The notes beneath the pieces are model-generated. The model saw nothing but the letters and a program-made list of their open reading frames with translations. It ran no database searches and was not told the DNA's origin. Below are positions 6,226 through 6,297 of a DNA stretch of 52,859 nt, piece after piece. This DNA is from a virus, in the IMG/VR virus record IMGVR_UViG_3300011114_000478, positions 1 to 52,859 of that record. One strand, 5' to 3'. Both the position numbers and the translations under genes were made by a program. Within the stretch, counting starts at the first letter, position 1, and every line of letters starts with the position of its first letter.

Positions 6226-6297
6226 ATGTGGACAAAACCAACAGCAACAGAGATGCGCTTCGGCTTCGAGGTGACTATGTACGTTATGAACAAGTAA
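6226..6297 (+). CDS. pqqA: PqqA, pyrroloquinoline quinone precursor peptide
   Basis: PqqA is a ribosomally made peptide that host PqqD binds and PqqE crosslinks between a Glu and a Tyr; those two residues become PQQ, the cofactor of periplasmic methanol and glucose dehydrogenases. This 23-codon gene starts MWTKP and carries [10 protein letters not shown] at residues 10-19, with Glu15 and Tyr19 at the canonical E-x3-Y spacing. Length, start and core match bacterial PqqA. It has AGGAG at 6212-6216, its own promoter and a terminator at 6344-6366. No pqqB, C, D or E is in the window, so host enzymes would be needed. Phage genes lie on both sides, so this is a phage-borne metabolic gene. Confidence 0.93.
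   Translation: [23 protein letters not shown]

Follow-up and report, generated by a model that had tools for sequence, protein, structure and literature searches.

Carriage by phages of PqqA, the precursor peptide of PQQ, is already known, and the locus described here is a further case. In the Lake Baikal viral population VP_266, PqqA occurs together with methanol dehydrogenase on a phage whose predicted hosts are Methylophilaceae and was read as an auxiliary metabolic gene (PMC7678222; 2020), and pqqA is also listed among viral genes from sediment (PMC13188868). No further reports of viral PqqA were found in the literature within our scope, outside which lay most subscription journals and all preprints. 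The sequence analysed here, which we call the window, is a whole stretch of 52,859 bases of viral DNA from IMG/VR. Similar to VP_266, it carries PqqA on a phage with a predicted Methylophilaceae host, but VP_266 is T4-like and has methanol dehydrogenase, whereas the window represents another phage type, in which we found no homologues of PqqB, PqqC, PqqD, PqqE or XoxF. The cultured phages Venkman, MEP301, P19250A, MEP401/402 and Melnitz resemble the window in having a pqqA, here unannotated (peptides 77-96% identical), but belong to other phage lineages whose genes are arranged differently; the pqqA of Venkman and MEP301 lies antisense to both flanking genes. On the host side, cultured Methylophilaceae carry 3-12 copies of pqqA and usually one set of the other pqq genes (PMC4109929).

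The peptide encoded in the window agrees with the PqqA family (PF08042/TIGR02107) in its length, in the W-x-x-P and G-F-E-V-T-x-Y motifs and in the E-x3-Y arrangement of Glu and Tyr, but its gene differs from the family in lying on a phage, away from pqqBCDE, and resembles the orphan copies of Methylophilaceae, not the operon copy. A first-pass annotation had proposed a 23-codon PqqA gene with the conserved motif at residues 10-19 and with Glu15 and Tyr19 as the reactive pair, and the open reading frame (23 codons and a stop) and the motif are both found in the sequence where it had placed them (Table 1). Glu15 and Tyr19 stand at the spacing of the pair that PqqE crosslinks in PqqA, and the predicted translation product has 23 residues and is preceded by AGGAG, as is usual for PqqA, a short peptide (about 22-29 residues) whose gene follows a ribosome site. 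Both profile scores exceed their curated cut-offs by a wide margin (40.7 bits against 21.1 for PF08042, and 39.3 bits against 20 for TIGR02107), and this is the only PqqA match in the whole record. The search for close relatives that the annotation had proposed as a check found them: the peptide differs by one residue from the variant most frequent among viruses, itself also common in hosts, and is almost unchanged in the cultured methylophages. On these sequence criteria the gene is confirmed as a genuine pqqA.

Table 1. Features at and around pqqA in the window
Feature	Position	Strand	Basis or remark
pqqA, 23-residue PQQ precursor peptide PqqA	6226..6297	+	PF08042, TIGR02107, 135 viral homologues, pN/pS 0.10
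Shine-Dalgarno AGGAG	6212..6216	+	sequence; 9 nt before ATG
Intrinsic terminator AAAGGGGAGC-TTCG-GCTCCCTTTT and T run	6340..6366	+	10-bp stem, kept in relatives
Possible sigma-70 promoter TAGACA-16-TATACT	6180..6207	+	10/12 consensus match; weak
Perfect gapped palindrome TATACAC-N6-GTGTATA, candidate operator	6186..6205	.	over possible -10

That this host-type gene lies in a genuine phage genome, as expected of an auxiliary metabolic gene, is indicated by the structural genes identified with PHROGs and by the peptides of the cultured phages. The window (GC 39.7%) encodes a helicase, two methyltransferases, the small and large terminase subunits, a portal, a head protein/protease and tail genes, and we found no RNA families or tRNAs in it. 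Bases 1-25,000, used as a query, have no near relative by DNA among 50,697 phage records. The PqqA type alone points to a Methylophilaceae host; a search with the window's large terminase subunit (TerL), run without a positive control, gave no match in 150 Methylophilaceae genomes. Between the terminase and the portal lies a gene for a 1220-residue protein (12051-15713), of which residues ~318-513 share ~50% identity with hypothetical proteins from phages of Microcystis and Roseobacter and residues 860-1098 are weakly like a PcfJ-like protein.

Viral pqqA genes of this kind are widespread. Our first scan of IMG/VR, in which DNA patterns served as queries, found at least 120 loci, of which the 120 listed all encode a PqqA of 22-25 residues with a ribosome site, and the viral homologue set comprises 135 members; counts from the scans are lower bounds. 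By gene neighbourhood, the loci of this first set, the isolates and the window fall into about 25 clusters, a number that short contigs may inflate, and 16 of these hold at least two loci. One cluster joins 49 loci to Venkman, MEP301, P19250A and an uncultured Manatee Spring phage, and the window's own cluster has 11 loci. Among annotated phage records, the genuine PqqA matches come from nine Methylophilales isolates and the Manatee Spring phage. These isolates are all of the cultured Methylophilales phage records that we found, and carriage is universal (9/9) across the unlike phage types of this set; MEP431-434 and some further phages listed by the taxonomy were not found in the collection. 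The two remaining matches (INPHARED) fall in 'Acinetobacter phage MD-2021a', which we set aside as a mislabelled bacterial chromosome because ppk and pqqBCD adjoin the match.

The claim that gene callers easily miss such tiny genes is borne out by these records: neither the nine isolates (0/9) nor the Manatee Spring phage have a PqqA annotation, and the publications on the cultured methylophages, as far as accessible, do not report it. In Melnitz (2961-3056) and in the Manatee Spring record, ctXG6705 (2067-2195), the match is instead overlain by annotated 'hypothetical proteins' that run antisense to the true pqqA; these are probably spurious.

Host contamination of the viral contigs was considered and rejected. 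We found no PqqB-E or XoxF on 136 and 58 loci, and the same queries do find pqq genes on 11-29 host loci, although for XoxF this control is thin, with one host locus. In a wider scan, the match on L435, which adjoins PqqB, was rejected as host flank, and L417 and L418, whose PqqA is of the enterobacterial type, were likewise counted as host flank.

The gene is under selection for the peptide that it encodes. Among nine distinct pqqA genes of the window's lineage, pS is 0.61 and pN/pS 0.10, and the coding bases of pqqA hold while the flanks have diverged. The TerL phylogeny, for which we counted only relatives with enough sequence and the region covered, places nine relatives with pqqA and the window in one clade (TerL 75-100% identical to that of the window), in which pqqA precedes TerL by 2.7-5 kb; on L279 it is found near the other contig end (51,596 of 55,059), where a permuted genome would be expected to have it. 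A further 13 relatives, some nearly full length and with TerL 70-74% identical, lack the gene. The two clades are sisters with 98% support, and one gain or loss therefore suffices. Retention in 10 of 10 members of one clade, together with the pN/pS, indicates that selection maintains the gene, as expected of an auxiliary metabolic gene, and that it is not carried passively. In the first-scan set, the invariance of W, K, P, G, E, V, T and Y proves nothing because the search pattern fixes these residues, and the 13 unconstrained codons give a pN/pS of 0.26 (bootstrap 0.20-0.31). When residues 1-9 were left free, at least 156 genes matched the pattern, and 143 of them begin at the expected Met; W2 and P5 are fixed in all 143, and 97% have a ribosome site. 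Twenty-three codons are too few to support a reliable tree, and neither the direction nor the number of host-phage transfers is readable from them.

In GTDB, the 11-residue PqqA motif is found almost only in records of Methylophilaceae, unresolved Betaproteobacteria or Pseudomonadota. All 121 Methylophilaceae genomes searched carry pqqA, with a mean of 4.55 copies (median 4, range 1-12), whereas pqqC was found in 119 of them and is single in 117. The median in 39 other Gammaproteobacteria with pqqA is one copy. The complete OM43 genome G001 has three copies, and its pqqC lies ~108 kb from the nearest of them. What hosts multiply is thus the gene for the consumed substrate rather than that for the enzyme, and the phage contributes a further copy. 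This amplification and the carriage of pqqA alone by phages fit one idea, that substrate supply matters. The earlier proposal that the phage supplies the substrate only is strengthened by the host copy numbers, together with the lack of PqqB-E and XoxF on the viral loci.

The phage copies also resemble the stand-alone units of the hosts, since a terminator closely follows most of the host copies. A terminator within 130 nt is found for 114 of 135 host pqqA genes (84%) and 57 of 131 viral ones, as compared to 21 of 675 random stretches. The terminator claimed for the window stands: the signal called at 6340-6363 is strong, and its stem recurs identically after pqqA in L259, L281 and L285, while the other flanking DNA has diverged. 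The claimed ribosome site is likewise present; at this place a ribosome site is found in 100% of viral pqqA genes and before 13% of random ATGs on the same contigs. The claim that pqqA has its own promoter, on the other hand, is not established. The predicted start of the candidate site, near 6214, falls within the Shine-Dalgarno sequence, and read-through is equally likely because an open reading frame on the same strand ends at 6138, 87 bases ahead of the ATG. The 601-base region holds six promoter-like sites, with 2.0 +/- 1.4 expected.

TATACAC-N6-GTGTATA has its only exact match within the window at the place given in Table 1, and an imperfect version lies upstream of pqqA in L259 and L281. 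A second palindrome, TTTTTGTGTAATA/TACTACACAAAAA, lies just past the terminator (6362-6387) as another candidate operator, so that the two flank pqqA on either side. Words like TTAATGGTTTT / TAATGATTT are enriched upstream of viral pqqA (e.g., at 6136-6147 in the window), and TGGTTT occurs there in 27 of 125 cases against 1.9 expected, being absent from the host top list; this type of enrichment may reflect shared ancestry or a signal.

We think it likely that genuine PqqA is made from the phage gene during infection of a Methylophilaceae methylotroph and is processed by PqqD, PqqE, PqqB and PqqC of the host, sustaining PQQ and methanol oxidation. Host PqqD would bind the phage peptide, PqqE would crosslink Glu15 to Tyr19, and PqqB and PqqC would complete PQQ, the cofactor of the host methanol dehydrogenase (XoxF). 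Only PqqA is consumed, at one molecule per PQQ, while the enzymes are reused, and it is therefore the component that must continue to be made when host transcription falls. Without any enzyme encoded by the phage, a gene of 72 bases, multiplied with the phage genome, could hold up or raise the PQQ supply, and through it methanol oxidation, energy and carbon. We infer expression, processing by host enzymes, a rise or maintenance of PQQ and a benefit to the phage from sequence; conversion of the phage peptide to PQQ by PqqD/E/B/C, sustaining methanol oxidation during infection, is probable on this basis. The literature (PMC9851590, PMC7936290) supports the importance of substrate supply indirectly. 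When PqqA peptide was added to a cell-free extract, 70-80% was converted to PQQ, and of five pqqA copies one orphan ranked in the top two by expression and rose along with PQQ output in a high producer (PMC9851590). As counterpoints, overexpression in other bacteria has given modest gains, with pqqB exceeding pqqA in one comparison (PMC7936290); the hosts already have several copies of pqqA (rarely one), so that PQQ may not be limited by PqqA; and the PQQ already in methanol dehydrogenase may persist through a lytic cycle.

The phage gene may replace and not boost, the same chemistry serving another end. If the infecting phage silences the host's templates or breaks them down, its own pqqA would do no more than keep PqqA at the level of the uninfected cell, and we give this version rather less than an even chance. 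A consumed substrate needs continuing expression and the enzymes do not, and pqqA is kept while pqqB-E are absent, both of which accord with replacement; it is nonetheless a sub-case of the preferred explanation, and sequence does not separate it from a boost. A parallel is psbA in cyanophages, which encodes photosystem D1 and replaces this short-lived protein. By analogy, in both cases the phage may supply the fastest-used part of the host energy apparatus, but psbA encodes a protein subunit and PqqA is a consumed cofactor precursor, and there is no homology between them.

The remaining alternatives seem to us improbable to differing degrees. A separate regulatory or signalling role of PqqA in methylotrophs, exploited by the phage, might account for the many host copies, most of them with their own terminator, which are more than substrate supply might need; we know of no regulator of this kind, and what is conserved is the peptide, synonymous positions being free to change, which speaks against an RNA role and leaves this explanation unlikely. 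We regard it as still less likely that the peptide acts as a decoy or inhibitor, occupying PqqD or PqqE and lowering PQQ, or becomes another product. PqqA is indeed bound by both proteins, but the reacting and motif residues are all kept, and four peptide variants are letter-for-letter common to the phage and host sets, so that the phage copy should behave like a host copy. The length of 72 bases is what could favour a chance open reading frame or a passive host fragment without function, the least probable reading: the profile scores, the ribosome sites, the pN/pS (expected near 1 under passive carriage), the fixed W2 and P5 in the less restricted scan, the retention in one clade and the 25 neighbourhoods all argue against it, and as a chance open reading frame it is rejected.

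The news is thus not phage PqqA as such but its near-universality and invisibility in methylophages. OM43 and related Methylophilaceae are abundant methanol consumers in coastal and fresh waters, and if it is true that unlike phages all bring this 23-residue precursor, PQQ supply would be a general pinch point of infection. Surveys based on gene calls would miss pqqA, which makes it a blind spot. The pattern suggests that phages commonly sustain host cofactor supply by delivering only the consumable part, and the cultured pairs of Venkman or Melnitz on OM43 strain H5P1 put the question within direct experimental reach. We hold it an evenly balanced proposition that nearly all phages of Methylophilaceae carry a stand-alone pqqA, missed by gene callers and supplying only the consumed part of the pathway, and that some phages of other bacterial groups, perhaps very large ones, do likewise with other PqqA types.

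Another PqqA type is found on the putatively viral L407 (contig of 339,794 bases), L449 (contig of 216,820 bases), L437 and L443, whose contigs are very large or mid-sized. Further viral PqqA types, on L401, L424, L452, L017, L410 and others, suggest that carriage of pqqA extends to phages of other PQQ-producing bacteria.
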